Shown here piece after piece: positions 1 to 36,066 of a DNA stretch of 64,000 nt. The position numbers and the translations under genes were made by a program. Under the pieces are notes generated by a model. The model did not search any database. It was not told the origin of the DNA and was given only the letters and a program-made list of their open reading frames with translations. Position 1 is the stretch's first letter. The number at the start of each line of letters is the position of its first letter. This DNA is from Chryseobacterium arachidis (GTDB taxonomy: Bacteria > Bacteroidota > Bacteroidia > Flavobacteriales > Weeksellaceae). The stretch lies in assembly GCF_900129245.1 (NCBI RefSeq), contig NZ_FQUT01000005.1, positions 1 to 64,000 of the forward strand, in the 5' to 3' direction.

Positions 1-76
1 CCATTCCGAACACAGAAGTTAAGCCCACCAGCGCCGATGGTACTGCTAACGCGGGAGAGTAGGTCGCCGCCAGTTT
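1..76 (+). rRNA. rrf: 5S ribosomal RNA, 3' part (5' end lies before the window)
   Basis: The first bases match the conserved interior of bacterial 5S rRNA (CCGAACACAGAAGTTAAGC), followed by the late loop and helix ending near GGTCGCCGCCAG. About 75 nucleotides are visible, so roughly the first third is outside the window. This is presumably the end of an rRNA operon. It is followed at once by a hairpin terminator. Confidence 0.95.
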
Positions 77-81
77 TTATT

Positions 82-117
82 AAAAGTCTCATAGATTATT
101 CTGTGAGACTTTTTTTT
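82..117 (+). terminator. Terminator of the rRNA operon
   Basis: AAAGTCTCAT and the matching arm GTGAGACTTT form a stem with a short AT-rich loop and a run of T. It begins a few bases after the 5S rRNA 3' end. Confidence 0.85.
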
Positions 118-165
118 GTTTGAAACTCAAAGAAACCCATACTCAAAACTCAAAGAGTTAGCTTT

Positions 166-220
166 GCCTATTGCCTATTGCCTATTGCCTATTGCCTATT
201 GCCTATTCCTATTGCCTATT
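166..220. repeat. Heptanucleotide tandem repeat, unit GCCTATT
   Basis: Eight consecutive copies of GCCTATT are visible; the seventh has lost its G. A short frame reads through the array but looks accidental, because it also runs into the neighbouring palindromic element. The array is a likely site of slipped-strand length change. Confidence 0.85.
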
Positions 221-268
221 GCTAGAAGCGTTCGTGATGACAACAGATGCTAATAATTATGACTTAAA

Positions 269-350
269 CCTAGCCCCGATTGCCGCGACATCCTTTTTTG
301 CAAGGATTAGAAATGGCAAAAAAGATATAGCAGAAAGCGGGATTAGCTCC
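269..350 (-). repeat. Dispersed palindromic element, family 1, copy A
   Basis: Read on the minus strand it starts GGAGCTAATCCCGC, passes a TTTTTTGC / GCAAAAAA hairpin and ends AATCGGGGCTAGG. The same two ends bracket different hairpins at 3166-3277 and 21675-21770. Bases 351-461, up to the next gene, are AT-rich with nothing else recognised. Confidence 0.7.
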
Positions 351-32349: not shown

Positions 32350-33159
32350 TTACAAATCAATTTTATGATTCAGTTCCAATGGATGATATCTTGGCTTTAT
32401 TCTCTTTAATAAATCTTTTGTTGCCTGGTTCAAATCGACTTCAGTATACTTATCGGGAGTTGTCTCCTGTAAAATATCACCTTTTTTAAGGGATGAAAAG
32501 GGATTAGTATAAAAGTTTTTTTGAATCTTTTTAAAGTCTTCCCACGAGATTAATTTTTGATATTTGGGGATATGTAAATTTTTCCATTCAAAATTTTGAA
32601 TTTGAGCTAATTCAAAATTAAAATCTTCCCGGTCATCAGATATTTTAACAATAAGTCCTGGTAATCCCTTAAAAATATAGGGGCCGTCGGAGATATTAAT
32701 ATTTGTGGTAAACCATGCGGTCCATTTTCTGCCTCCGTACATCAGGGTTGCTTTTTGACAATCATATTTGCCTATTTTTAATTTTTCAGGAGTAATATTC
32801 CAGTCGAGATTGTCTTTAATGTCAATGGCAAACGTTGCATAAACAACCGGAACAAAAATATATTTTAAAGTAGTATTTGTGTTTGTATTTTTTTCAACAT
32901 ACAGCTGCTTATTATTAAATTCTGTCTCAAAACCATTCGGATAACCTCTGACAGCCTGCAAAGAATCCGATTTTCTAAACATACCTGAGCGAAAAACAGA
33001 TTGCTGATCTTTAATATCTAAGTAAAATTTAATTTTATCCACAGATAAAGTATCCGGATAGTTTCTGTATGTTAATTCATAAATAAAACTTGAATTTTGT
33101 GCTGTGAGAAAATTCGACAGGATTAGTAATAGAAAAAATAAGTGTTTGTTGTTATTCAT
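32350..33159 (-). CDS. GLPGLI family protein
   Basis: A 269-residue secreted protein with signal peptide MNNNKHLFFLLLILSNFLTAQ. The name-giving motif G165-LPGLI170 is present, preceded by a conserved W-T-A-W-F segment and followed by KISD. The family is widespread in Bacteroidota, is exported to the periplasm or surface, and has no established function. Its ATG overlaps the 3' end of an XRE regulator gene by 8 bases (TAA inside ATGAATAA), so the two are translationally coupled. The pair diverges from the grasp-with-spasm RiPP operon, and a functional link with it is plausible but unproven. Confidence 0.9.
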   Translation of the reverse strand: MNNNKHLFFLLLILSNFLTAQNSSFIYELTYRNYPDTLSVDKIKFYLDIKDQQSVFRSGMFRKSDSLQAVRGYPNGFETEFNNKQLYVEKNTNTNTTLKYIFVPVVYATFAIDIKDNLDWNITPEKLKIGKYDCQKATLMYGGRKWTAWFTTNINISDGPYIFKGLPGLIVKISDDREDFNFELAQIQNFEWKNLHIPKYQKLISWEDFKKIQKNFYTNPFSSLKKGDILQETTPDKYTEVDLNQATKDLLKRIKPRYHPLELNHKIDL

Positions 33160-33481
33160 ATGCTCTTATTTTCTTTTTTAAAAATTCATTTTCATGCAAT
33201 AAATTTTTGATGTATTTTATTGATATATATATGTTTAAATTGTCAACTGAATTGTCAGAAGTAGTTTCTTTAAAAAGATTTATTCTAAATTCGCTTTCAT
33301 ATATGCTATCAAGGCTAACATTTAAAAATTTAGACATTTTTAGCCATTCTTCGATGGTCAATTTTACTTGTCCATTTTCTTTTCTGCAATATGCGGACAC
33401 ATCTTTACAAATGACTGATGCCATCTGTTCTTGTGTTAATCCCATACTTACTCTCATTTGTTTTAATTTTTCCTTTTTCAT
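33152..33481 (-). CDS. XRE-type helix-turn-helix regulator
   Basis: A 109-residue DNA-binding protein. Residues 5-62 form the XRE HTH (MRVSMGLTQEQMASVIC, then WLKMSKFLNVSLDSIY). The remaining ~45 residues look like a coiled coil (YIKNLLHENEFLKKKI) suited to dimerisation. It is divergent from the RiPP precursor gene across 146 bases, and its stop codon lies within the start region of the GLPGLI gene. It probably controls its own operon, the RiPP genes, or both. Like the RiPP genes it is far more AT-rich than the neighbouring housekeeping genes. Confidence 0.8.
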   Translation of the reverse strand: MKKEKLKQMRVSMGLTQEQMASVICKDVSAYCRKENGQVKLTIEEWLKMSKFLNVSLDSIYESEFRINLFKETTSDNSVDNLNIYISIKYIKNLLHENEFLKKKIRAYE

Positions 33482-33627: not shown

Positions 33628-33828
33628 ATGAAAAAATTAACAGGCTTAAAGAGATCTTTATCATCTTTAGAAAACAAAAAATTAAAGAATCTTAAATCAA
33701 TTGTAGGAGGGAGATATAAAATCCAATCTAACATTAGTGTTAATGGTTCGGTAGAATATGATGTATATGAATATAACGGAGGACCATATATTGGAAGAGA
33801 AACTTGGTTTAATGAAGATGTTAATTAA
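33628..33828 (+). CDS. Grasp-with-spasm RiPP precursor peptide
   Basis: A 66-residue peptide with the layout of a ribosomal natural-product precursor. Residues 1-28 are a leader (MKKLTGLKRSLSSLENKKLK..., ending I-V-G27-G28), rich in Lys and Leu and with a double-glycine end. Residues 29-66 are the presumed core. This contains S34, S37, S41 and T59 as possible ester donors and E43, D45, E48, E58, E63 and D64 as acceptors, ending RETWFNEDVN. There is no Cys, arguing against lanthipeptide or sactipeptide chemistry. An ATP-grasp ligase and a SPASM maturase follow, so macrocyclisation through side-chain ester or amide bonds (graspetide type) is the likely fate. Cleavage after GG is inferred. Confidence 0.75.
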   Translation: MKKLTGLKRSLSSLENKKLKNLKSIVGGRYKIQSNISVNGSVEYDVYEYNGGPYIGRETWFNEDVN

Positions 33829-33858
33829 ACATAGTTTACTTAATATCAAAGTTTATAC

Positions 33859-33888
33859 AAACCGGCTTCAAGATTGAAGCTGGTTTTA
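33859..33888 (+). terminator. Hairpin between RiPP precursor and maturation genes
   Basis: AAACCGGCTTC pairs with GAAGCTGGTTT (one G-T pair) around a six-base loop, followed by only a short T run. It may be a leaky terminator, or it may stabilise the mRNA end, giving more precursor than enzyme transcript. Confidence 0.65.
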
Positions 33889-33902
33889 TAATGTCTTAAT
33901 AT

Positions 33903-34808
33903 ATGATATTGATTTTTTCATCAAAAAAGGATTACACGACTAATGAAGTGATTAAATGGCTAATTTTTAAAAAGAAAAAATTTATTCGAGTTCATGATTC
34001 TGAGGTATTTGAAATTAGTGTAATTAATAGAAAGTTTTTTTTAAAAAGCGCCAGAAATTCATTTTATATCGATGATATCACTAGCGTATGGTTTAGAAGA
34101 GGTGGTTTAAAATTCAAAAGACTCAAGTATCAAATTAATTCGATTAATTTGATGATGGATGAAACACAATTTTTATTAGAGGAATATATAATAAAAACAT
34201 TAGAATCAAAAAAACATATCAATAAGCAGAGTAATAAGAGGGCTAATAAACTGCTTGTTTTGGAAAAGGCAAAAGAGGTAGGTCTTGATGTACCCGAATA
34301 TTTTATATCTACTAATACAGATGATGTAAAGCTAAATGAAACTATAACAAAATCAATAGCTGAAACCATTATTGTTGAATCTGCTTTTGAAGATTTTGAT
34401 GGAATTCTTTATACTCATGTAGTAAGTAAAAAAGAAGAAGATTCTTTTTTTCCAACATTTTTCCAACGTAAAATTGAAAAAGAATTTGAAATTAGAAGTT
34501 TTTATCTGAATGGGGAAATTTGGTCTTGTGCTATTATTTCTCAAAACGATGAGCAAACTAAAGTGGATTATAGACTGTATAATATTGAAAAGCCTAATAG
34601 AAATGTCCGTTATGTTTTACCAAGAGAAATCTGTAATAAAATCTCCTTATTAATGAAAATATTAGATTATAATTGCGGATCTATTGACATCATTAAATCT
34701 ATTGATGGGAAATTCTATTTTTTAGAAGTAAATCCTATAGGTCAATTTCTAGGCATATCCAGCCTTTGTAATTATTCATTAGAAAAAGTAATAGCAGATT
34801 ATTTATAA
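33903..34808 (+). CDS. Grasp-with-spasm system ATP-grasp peptide maturase
   Basis: A 301-residue ATP-grasp ligase of the graspetide (microviridin-like) type. The N-terminal ~110 residues form the pre-ATP-grasp part, including the W-F-R-R-G segment typical of these enzymes. The C-terminal half holds the nucleotide and Mg sites: a basic QRKIEKEFEIRSFY strand, D262 in GSID, and E275-V-N277-P-I-G. It would activate acidic side chains of the precursor with ATP and close ester or amide crosslinks. The precursor is 74 bases upstream and a 58-residue ORF starts 2 bases after its stop codon. The whole operon is extremely AT-rich. Confidence 0.85.
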   Translation: MILIFSSKKDYTTNEVIKWLIFKKKKFIRVHDSEVFEISVINRKFFLKSARNSFYIDDITSVWFRRGGLKFKRLKYQINSINLMMDETQFLLEEYIIKTLESKKHINKQSNKRANKLLVLEKAKEVGLDVPEYFISTNTDDVKLNETITKSIAETIIVESAFEDFDGILYTHVVSKKEEDSFFPTFFQRKIEKEFEIRSFYLNGEIWSCAIISQNDEQTKVDYRLYNIEKPNRNVRYVLPREICNKISLLMKILDYNCGSIDIIKSIDGKFYFLEVNPIGQFLGISSLCNYSLEKVIADYL

Positions 34809-34810
34809 CT

Positions 34811-34987
34811 ATGAAAGATATCATATTAAAAGAGAAACTTCCTCTTAATTTTAGATACATGCAAATATTTGGTTCTGATAAAACAAAAAAAATAAAGGAA
34901 GCAGTTAAGTATGTAGTTTGTAGTAAATATCAAACCGATAGTTTGGAACGAACTCCTCCATTTAAAAACTTTACTCGAATGCTATGA
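34811..34987 (+). CDS. Small unrecognised protein inside the grasp-with-spasm operon
   Basis: A 58-residue ORF (starts MKDIILKEKLPLNFRYMQIF, ends FKNFTRML) that is below common size filters. Its ATG is 2 bases after the ATP-grasp stop codon, and its TGA overlaps the ATG of the SPASM gene in the classic ATGA arrangement. Both junctions imply that it is translated and coupled to the maturases. It is basic overall, has one Cys (C37), no leader-type GG, no membrane segment and no motif I know. It could be an accessory subunit, a leader-recognition element or a degenerate second precursor; the sequence alone does not decide. Confidence 0.65.
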   Translation: MKDIILKEKLPLNFRYMQIFGSDKTKKIKEAVKYVVCSKYQTDSLERTPPFKNFTRML

Positions 34988-36066
34988 GATATTTTAATTT
35001 ATTTAGTGATATCTTAATAACAAAAGGAGCAAGCAGAATTTTAATTTCTGATTTGCAAAGAAATATTTCTGAAGTATTTCCTTTAGAATTTTTTCATGTA
35101 ATAGAGGAATTAAAAACCAAATCGATCGAGCAAATTTTATCCAGGTATGATATTGAATCAAAATTACTTTTTGAAGAGTATATTGAATTTTTCTTAGAAG
35201 AAGAATATGGTTTTATAAGTTATAATGATTGGGATAAAAATTTTGTTCCATATTCATTCAGTCACCATGAGCCTTCTAAGATAAATAATATCTTTTTAGA
35301 ATTGGATGACTTTTCTATATTTGAAAAAATTAAACAATCAATAGAAAATTTAGGTGTTCAGTATCTGAGTATATGTAGTTCCCGAAAAATTTTAATTAAA
35401 GAAATTTTAGAAATTGAATCAATTTTTGACGGTACTTCATTAGAAGGCATTGAAATCTATTGTCCTTACCATGAAGAAATTAATGATAACTCATTAAAAG
35501 CTTTAGACAAAAGTTTCAAGAGAATTTATAACTTGGTATTTTACAATTGTAATGTTAAATTTCATGATTTTAATGAAGATTCGGTGTTTAATTTTACTGA
35601 AGATAATTTAAATATAAAAAAATGCGGAATTGTTGATTTGAAATATTTTTCAACTAATATTCCAAAGATTATTGAAAGTAAAAATTATAATTCTTGTTTA
35701 TTTAAAAAAGTAGGAATTGATTCTGAAGGAAATATTAAAAATTGTCCGGCATTCGAAGAATCTTATGGTAATATTTATAAAAACTCACTTGAAGATATAG
35801 TTAAGATTCAGGGTTTTAAAAAATATTGGAATATTACTAAAAATGAGATCGAGATTTGCAAAGATTGTGAGTTTCGCTATATTTGTACGGATTGTAGAGC
35901 TTATACTGAAAAAACTCATATAAATAAAGATGGATTAGATATATCCAAACCACTAAAATGCGGATACAATCCATACACAGGAGAATGGGAAGAGTGGAGT
36001 CTTAATCCTTTAAAACAAATGGCCATCAAATATTATGATATGTATGGATTACTAAAAATCGATTAA
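34984..36066 (+). CDS. Grasp-with-spasm system SPASM domain peptide maturase
   Basis: A 360-residue protein with a C-terminal SPASM domain but no radical-SAM CxxxCxxC: the N-terminal region carries no Cys cluster at all. The SPASM cysteines are C238, C254, C292, C295, C301, C304 and C326, in the pattern C-x15-C, C-x2-C-x5-C-x2-C, C. They are suited to two auxiliary iron-sulfur clusters. This SPASM-without-radical-SAM layout beside an ATP-grasp ligase defines the grasp-with-spasm systems of Bacteroidota. The protein may bind or position the precursor, or do further chemistry; its activity is not established. Its start overlaps the 58-residue ORF by 4 bases. Confidence 0.85.
   Translation: MRYFNLFSDILITKGASRILISDLQRNISEVFPLEFFHVIEELKTKSIEQILSRYDIESKLLFEEYIEFFLEEEYGFISYNDWDKNFVPYSFSHHEPSKINNIFLELDDFSIFEKIKQSIENLGVQYLSICSSRKILIKEILEIESIFDGTSLEGIEIYCPYHEEINDNSLKALDKSFKRIYNLVFYNCNVKFHDFNEDSVFNFTEDNLNIKKCGIVDLKYFSTNIPKIIESKNYNSCLFKKVGIDSEGNIKNCPAFEESYGNIYKNSLEDIVKIQGFKKYWNITKNEIEICKDCEFRYICTDCRAYTEKTHINKDGLDISKPLKCGYNPYTGEWEEWSLNPLKQMAIKYYDMYGLLKID

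Follow-up and report, generated by a model that had tools for sequence, protein, structure and literature searches.

The first 64,000 nucleotides of contig NZ_FQUT01000005.1 of Chryseobacterium arachidis (assembly GCF_900129245.1), here called the window, carry a compact operon on the forward strand at positions 33628-36066, in which a precursor gene is followed by a hairpin, an ATP-grasp ligase gene, a small open reading frame (ORF) and a gene for a SPASM protein. Based on matches to the family models TIGR04139, TIGR04192 and TIGR04193, all of which are above cut-off, we firmly assign the operon to the catalogued grasp-with-spasm class. Our proposal is that it directs the synthesis, guided by a RiPP recognition element (RRE), of a graspetide, that is, a ribosomal peptide closed by a side-chain ester, with a split leader function: a SPASM protein that is not a radical enzyme would hold the leader, and the small protein would activate the ligase in trans. 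This reading is drawn from the anatomy of the proteins, and we estimate its probability at about 0.5.

Operon structure and family membership

The operon was delineated by ORF and sequence inspection. The precursor gene (33628-33828, 66 residues) matched TIGR04139 with 41.1 bits, only just over the cut-off of 40. Much higher scores were obtained for the ligase gene (33903-34808, 301 residues; TIGR04192, 341.5 bits, cut-off 230) and for the SPASM gene (34984-36066; TIGR04193, 392.9 bits, cut-off 175). The small ORF (34811-34987, 58 residues) overlaps the SPASM gene by 4 nt (ATGA), and all four reading frames are intact. An earlier note, made from the sequence of the window, had listed the same parts in the same order and at the same positions, and its class name, a grasp-with-spasm system of the graspetide type, is correct. 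The note had also proposed to search the enzymes against the hidden Markov models (HMMs) of the class; this search gave a clear match to the SPASM model and did not place the ligase in an unrelated ATP-grasp family.

Among the ATP-grasp branches described by Makarova et al. 2022 (PMC8939145), the locus belongs to branch 5. In the part of that paper covered here, branch 5 is described as combining an ATP-grasp ligase and a SPASM protein with diverse Gly-Gly (GG) precursors that have conserved Thr/Ser and Asp/Glu residues, with a small LPL protein encoded directly 5' of the SPASM gene and a cluster-23 protein in almost all loci. The present operon resembles this branch in its gene set and order, family scores, LPL protein, GG leader and core Ser/Thr and Asp/Glu residues, but encodes neither a cluster-23 lipoprotein nor an exporter next to it, and its core is free of Cys. 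By its gene content only, it is probably also a member of the group 14 graspetides in the Mitchell-lab scheme, all of which co-occur with a SPASM-domain protein and show high co-occurrence of a peptidase-type transporter, according to the part of PMC13097080 covered. No characterised product of grasp-with-spasm loci was found in the literature covered (PMC8939145, in part, and others), which agrees with the earlier description of the product as largely uncharacterised; the loci themselves, the small protein and the Ser/Thr-Asp/Glu pair have, however, already been described (PMC8939145, in the part covered).

For comparison, 100 Chryseobacterium loci were selected from a longer list and weighted towards the closest relatives of the SPASM protein, with some genomes contributing two loci; no ligase was found in one of them (L137), hence n=99 in some of the genus counts. 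Named genomes were scanned with an alignment query, and the best 80 of the 494 relatives obtained were used further. They come from Chryseobacterium, Pedobacter, Sphingobacterium, Taibaiella and one metagenome-assembled genome labelled only Sphingobacteriaceae, and the nearest of them is only 60% identical. A TIGR04193 match was present in 116 of the 148 sampled Chryseobacterium genomes (106 over cut-off) and in 24 of the 296 genomes of a phylum sample (10 over cut-off). In the tree, the closest neighbours of the SPASM protein are two sequences from Pedobacter (L213 and L218; support 100/97), a genus of another Bacteroidota family, and the grouping lies inside a mostly Chryseobacterium clade, which suggests horizontal transfer either to or from Pedobacter.

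A predicted RRE fold and a barrel without the SAM-cluster loop

The SPASM protein seems to consist of an N-terminal RRE, a barrel without the loop for the S-adenosylmethionine (SAM) cluster and a SPASM domain, an anatomy that is apparently new. In the published account of branch 5 the SPASM protein is taken to be a radical-SAM enzyme (PMC8939145, in the part covered). No report of an RRE in the TIGR04193 family was found in the literature searched, although key papers lay outside that search. The AlphaFold2 model, built from 52 sequences, has a mean predicted local distance difference test score (pLDDT) of 82, with values of 85-94 for residues 1-80 and below 50 for residues 213-216.

In the model, residues 1-85 (34984-35238) have an RRE (PqqD-like) fold, a winged helix with three strands. 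Structure comparison of residues 2-81 with VIA-align gave a Z of 9.8 and a root-mean-square deviation (rmsd) of 2.0 A over 77 residues (2-78) to a lasso-peptide B1 protein with bound leader (6jx3_B), followed by TbiB1 with leader (Z 9.2), TruD (Z 8.1) and MccB (about 6.5). These proteins, as well as TigE and similar ones, we take to be RRE proteins. Matches along most of the model were obtained to proteins with the order RRE, radical-SAM barrel and SPASM domain, namely TigE (1..335) and 5wgg (9..331), and the four Foldseek matches with E <= 0.001 were three chains of 5why/5wgg, which is presumably CteB, and SuiB, with E 5.6e-7 to 5why. Residues 95-335 matched BtrN (Z 10.6), 5wgg (10.2), PqqE (9.9) and anSME (9.3), and also SuiB. 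A Z near 10 with an rmsd of about 4.5-7 A is modest for a large domain, since models that have no clear match typically reach best values of 7-8, and the assignment of the large domain therefore rests also on the Foldseek E value to 5why and on the SPASM HMM. When solved structures were searched by sequence with the SPASM profile, only two weak matches appeared (E 0.0013 and 0.053), which were taken as unrelated.

The radical-SAM-like barrel (residues 95-210, 35266-35613) has neither a CxxxCxxC loop nor a GGE-type motif. At the expected place of the cluster loop in the model, hardly any residues separate strand 102-107 from helix 111-123. The absence of CxxxCxxC had been pointed out before and is real, but it is not special to this locus, since the motif is found in none of the 100 genus relatives. 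Nor did it occur in any relative from the phylum sample scoring above 78 bits; five weak, local matches in that sample are ordinary radical-SAM/SPASM proteins and do have it. The one match among the 80 named loci (CIEVCKDC in L284) arises because an additional Cys precedes the SPASM cysteines. A GGE-like match (G[GA][ED] within residues 86-215) was seen in two of 100 relatives. Thus, the model shares its domain order with the maturases 5wgg/5why, SuiB and TigE but differs from them in lacking CxxxCxxC and GGE and in having a shorter barrel.

Residues 211-360 (35614-36066) form the predicted SPASM Fe-S domain, which matched PF13186 with 27 bits (cut-off 21.5); this family was detected in 48 of the 52 aligned members. 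Eight cysteines, C214, C238, C254, C292, C295, C301, C304 and C326, are invariant in all 52.

A PFFARFL-like motif in the small protein

The small ORF corresponds to the published LPL protein (PMC8939145, in the part covered), and was aligned with 40 relatives. It has two motifs, LPLNFRYM near the N-terminus and PFKNFTRML at the C-terminus, and M1, L10, L12, P50, K52 and R56 are invariant in the alignment of 41 sequences (the window protein and its 40 relatives). In 66 of 99 genus loci an ORF with exact LPL occupies the same position, immediately ahead of the SPASM gene, and several more loci have near variants. The pattern P-[FLIV]-x-x-[RK]-[FYH]-[LIMV], which resembles the PFFARFL motif of microviridin systems, matched 32 of the 41 LPL proteins as compared to 50 of 8200 shuffled sequences; the matching segment in the window protein is PLNFRYM. 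The same pattern was absent from all 80 precursors (the present one included), all 99 ligases and all 100 SPASM proteins. In microviridins the motif lies in the precursor leader, and a role in switching on the ligase is described for it (PMC8939145, in the part covered). We propose that the LPL protein is a trans-acting activator and adaptor.

A folded LPL domain was considered and rejected, as the AlphaFold2 prediction showed no fold (pLDDT 55). Comparison with the PqqD profile revealed no similarity (probability 0.1). Of the 76 small proteins in the genus slot, 73, including some that lack LPL, have a C-terminal K-P-like motif according to a permissive pattern that has no shuffle control. 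Some of the small proteins in this slot are called unrelated in the published account (PMC8939145, in the part covered); because the C-terminal K-motif is common to both, they may be relatives of LPL and form one family with it.

The ligase is related to macrolactone and macrolactam ligases

In phmmer searches the ligase matched the solved ATP-grasp ligases 5ig8 (E 1.5e-17), 7mgv (CdnC, 4.3e-17), 7m4s (AMdnB, 1.4e-15) and 5ig9 (5.4e-15); we take 5ig8 and 5ig9 to be MdnB and MdnC. On this basis the protein is a proposed macrolactone/macrolactam synthetase, the closest solved relatives being known as macrolactone/lactam ligases (PMC9826346, in the part covered). A crude pattern, on which we do not rely, detected an E-x-N-P-like motif in 78 of 99 ligases, and the pattern for one further ligase segment matched only six of 99 sequences, which made a comparison of its length impossible.

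The precursor and a predicted Ser34-Glu43 ester

The precursor has a leader M1-G28 (MKKLTGLKRSLSSLENKKLKNLKSIVGG) ending in ...SIVGG and a core R29-N66. The core contains four Ser/Thr residues (S34, S37, S41 and T59), six acidic residues (E43, D45, E48, E58, E63 and D64) and no Cys, in agreement with the earlier count. The match to Bacteroid_pep (19.9 bits) is below the cut-off of 25. A search starting from the precursor retrieved 79 related ORFs, which are spread over 77 of the 100 genus loci, the remaining 23 loci having other precursors or none detectable by that search. In the proposed model the leader pattern is MKKLxGLK...SLENKKLKNLxSIxGG. A TIGR04139 search of the C. arachidis genome itself returned no match, not even the present precursor, and is hence uninformative on further precursors.

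Conserved Ser/Thr and Glu/Asp columns are apparent in an alignment of 114 distinct precursors, composed of the related genus ORFs and of matches that the named loci gave at E <= 1e-10. The column of Glu43 holds Asp or Glu in 114/114 sequences, and Ser/Thr is found at positions 34-35 in 106/114 and within 33-36 in 113/114. Based on these two columns, we predict a conserved ester between Ser34 (33727-33729) and Glu43 (33754-33756). Asp45, the column of which is acidic in 77/114 precursors, would be the main alternative acceptor to Glu43. A candidate second Ser/Thr-acid pair at positions 49 and 57 was also considered from alignment columns, but is confounded by subfamilies. The ring pattern may be new, as had been suggested, and the evidence favours a single conserved ester over a microviridin-like block.

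The Cys-free core had been called unusual, which does not hold for the genus. Among 74 distinct genus cores, 23, including the present one, have no Cys, three have one, 43 have two and five have three, so that 51 carry Cys (80 rows were counted, with two, L109 and L118, unparsed and dropped). In the wider set of 114 sequences, with a cruder cut at residue 28, the corresponding numbers are 26, 24, 54 and 10. Strict pairing of cysteines as proof of disulfides was dropped as an argument, since single-Cys sequences are common in the wider set (24/114) and there is no parity rule. The present core has probably lost both of its cysteines, because its nearest relatives (e.g. SYNVQSNVSVGEGCIEYDTY...VC) and the precursors of the two sister Pedobacter loci (DCGDGCAEWD) have two. 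A different type of GG precursor (MKKKLESLKLKKFKMQ...VKGG, with a core ...TYNGTYYV...) was observed together with a distant clade of SPASM proteins in loci L123, L124, L125, L286 and L292.

Hairpin, neighbouring genes and export

A 12-bp hairpin is located at 33859-33886, between the precursor and ligase genes. The stretch in which it lies folds at -18.8 kcal/mol (z -4.47), and none of 200 shuffles folded as well. With a criterion of at least 8 bp and at least three G/C, a hairpin was found at most 110 nt after 64 of the 79 related precursors, as compared to 46 of 790 mononucleotide-shuffled controls. The T tail after the hairpin is weak, with four T in the next 8 nt; four or more T occur in this interval in 42 of the 79. 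The hairpin is probably an attenuator or an mRNA-stability element that would let the precursor outnumber the enzymes.

There is no gene for the cluster-23 lipoprotein between precursor and ligase in the window, whereas 76 of 100 genus loci have such a gene, as do 52 of the 80 named loci. Elsewhere in the same genome the search for the lipoprotein returned no match, a weak test in that an empty answer shows nothing. The sister Pedobacter loci also lack the gene and have full-length precursors, and the shorter layout is therefore probably inherited. In six loci (L086, L107, L112, L142, L145 and L153) a lipoprotein-like protein of 290-301 residues is encoded between precursor and ligase, with the end of its gene touching or overlapping the ligase start; this protein is probably cluster 23 of PMC8939145.

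The ORFs between 29000 and 41000 include no recognised exporter adjoining the operon. The single C39-peptidase match in the genome lies in the peptidase-containing transporter (PCAT) of a cassette that also encodes a VKOR-thioredoxin protein and HlyD. This cassette, located on another contig of the genome (C22, L164:4972-11027), comprises a VKOR-thioredoxin fusion, the PCAT, HlyD and two small Cys-containing GG peptides of 65 and approximately 57 residues. It looks like a separate bacteriocin-type locus, which may also serve the operon in the window. Such sharing is plausible, because VKOR and PCAT genes adjoin the operon in relatives: a VKOR gene is found within 1 kb downstream in at least 18 of 100 relatives, and a PCAT gene downstream on the same strand in at least 23 of 100 (flanks of about 4 kb). 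Adjacency of VKOR is associated with cores that have at least two Cys (14/14 as compared to 38/64; Fisher p 0.0033; L118 left out), although this association across related loci is only suggestive.

Upstream, on the opposite strand, a divergent XRE-type helix-turn-helix regulator is encoded at 33152-33481 (HTH_3, 41.4 bits), which possibly regulates the operon; 12 of 100 genus loci have a homologue that is likewise upstream and on the opposite strand. A gene for a GLPGLI-family protein (32350-33159, reverse strand; TIGR01200, 142.9 bits) lies directly after the regulator gene and overlaps it by 8 nt.

Proposed mechanism and alternative explanations

According to our proposal, the precursor leader would be held by the N-terminal RRE of the SPASM protein, whose barrel without a SAM-cluster loop would have no radical function and whose SPASM domain, with its predicted Fe-S clusters, would be a scaffold. 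The LPL protein would bring its PFFARFL-like segment in trans and thereby switch on the ATP-grasp ligase, while its conserved C-terminus would dock to another partner, probably the SPASM protein. The complex would then present the core to the ligase, which would activate Glu43 with ATP and join it to the hydroxyl of Ser34 with the loss of 18 Da. Cleavage after Gly-Gly and export would be carried out by the ABC exporter with a C39 peptidase whose gene lies in the cassette on another contig, and in relatives with Cys pairs the VKOR-thioredoxin protein may oxidise the cysteines. We also put forward, more tentatively, a three-way split of the leader function, in which the RRE-pseudo-barrel-SPASM protein would hold the leader, the unfolded LPL protein would activate the ligase in trans, and the Fe-S clusters would have a structural or redox-sensing role, possibly with iron- or oxygen-gating of the ligase. 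No report of such a split was found in the literature covered.

Several observations weigh against the proposed mechanism. Profile comparison (hhalign) of the N-terminal region of the SPASM protein with PqqD gave only a weak match (probability 10.7, E 0.0029), little better than that of an XRE control (5.7, E 0.0067), so that it is the predicted fold that carries the claim of an RRE, and no RRE/PqqD family appeared among the 25 of 32 Pfam families listed for the 52 members. Nine of the 41 LPL proteins lack the PFFARFL-like motif and 33 of 99 genus loci have no exact LPL ORF in this slot; furthermore, the pattern was chosen after the sequences had been viewed, and the 32 matches are from one homologous family rather than independent events. 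The acid column was read from an alignment with some freedom in that region, which may pull acids together. The exporter in this genome was assigned by elimination. Finally, eight invariant cysteines are a heavy cost for a mere scaffold, and a redox or catalytic role of the clusters, which is compatible with them, is for that reason kept in view.

The same cysteines bear on an alternative explanation, in which the SPASM protein acts as a genuine tailoring enzyme that would add a second modification (e.g. thioether, C-C or C-O bonds) through its Fe-S clusters without a canonical SAM site, as proposed for the whole branch by Makarova et al. (PMC8939145, in the part covered). The invariance of all eight in the 52 members, the regular pairing of the SPASM and ligase genes and the presence of Cys in 51 of the 74 distinct genus cores are in line with such an enzyme, which we nevertheless regard as unlikely given the lack of CxxxCxxC (0/100), the rarity of GGE-like matches (2/100) and the missing barrel loop in the model. 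Moreover, the loci of the 23 Cys-free cores keep the SPASM gene, and thioethers can therefore not be the general task. Neither thioether formation nor other radical-SAM chemistry was therefore accepted as the general role of this protein, given the absent motif and the Cys-free cores that keep the gene. It is also doubtful that the LPL protein rather than the RRE is the leader chaperone, in a PqqD-like role with the SPASM protein as the effector. This arrangement was suggested in PMC8939145 (in the part covered) and would fit the position of the LPL gene directly before the SPASM gene with a 4-nt overlap, but the protein has 58 residues, no predicted fold and no resemblance to the PqqD profile, and an RRE fold is predicted in the N-terminus of the SPASM protein instead.

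That no characterised group member was found in the literature covered, in part, leaves some room for a product that is not a graspetide, the ATP-grasp enzyme joining something other than core side chains, such as an added amino acid or a backbone amide. We consider this improbable in view of the closest solved relatives of the ligase, which are macrolactone/lactam ligases, and of the invariant acid column and nearly invariant Ser/Thr in the core. Least of all do we expect the present copy to be decaying: the lipoprotein gene present in 76 of 100 genus loci is missing between precursor and ligase and was not matched elsewhere in the genome (the weak test above), and both core cysteines appear to be lost, but the four reading frames are intact and the well-supported sister Pedobacter loci, which have full-length precursors, are also without the gene.

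Relation to known systems and implications

Two further known systems share features with the present one. The ligases of microviridins and chryseoviridin (5ig8, 5ig9, AMdnB and CdnC) are homologous to the present one, and a PFFARFL-like motif is present in both systems; whereas microviridins have it in the precursor leader (PMC8939145, in the part covered), it is located in the LPL protein here, and no precursor out of 80 has the microviridin-type leader motif. In the rosaritide system (MirA/MirB/MirC) the ATP-grasp enzyme likewise needs a partner protein, and the N-domain of MirC is weakly RRE-like (PMC13097080, in the part covered). MirC differs in being a chaperone/peptidyl-prolyl isomerase-like protein from Micromonospora, for which no SPASM domain is mentioned in that part of the paper.

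The class is present in most of the sampled Chryseobacterium genomes (116/148), yet its product is not described in the literature covered. Should the whole family lack the SAM site, the published radical-SAM/thioether reading steers experiments to the wrong chemistry. If our proposal is true, the SPASM protein is a leader holder with a dead radical-SAM barrel, which changes the view of how the class works, and leader binding and ligase activation are divided between two proteins. The combination of an RRE pseudo-enzyme with a separate activator would then explain a possible failure of expression experiments with ligase and precursor, and would name the three proteins that need to be co-expressed with the precursor: the ligase, the LPL protein and the SPASM protein.

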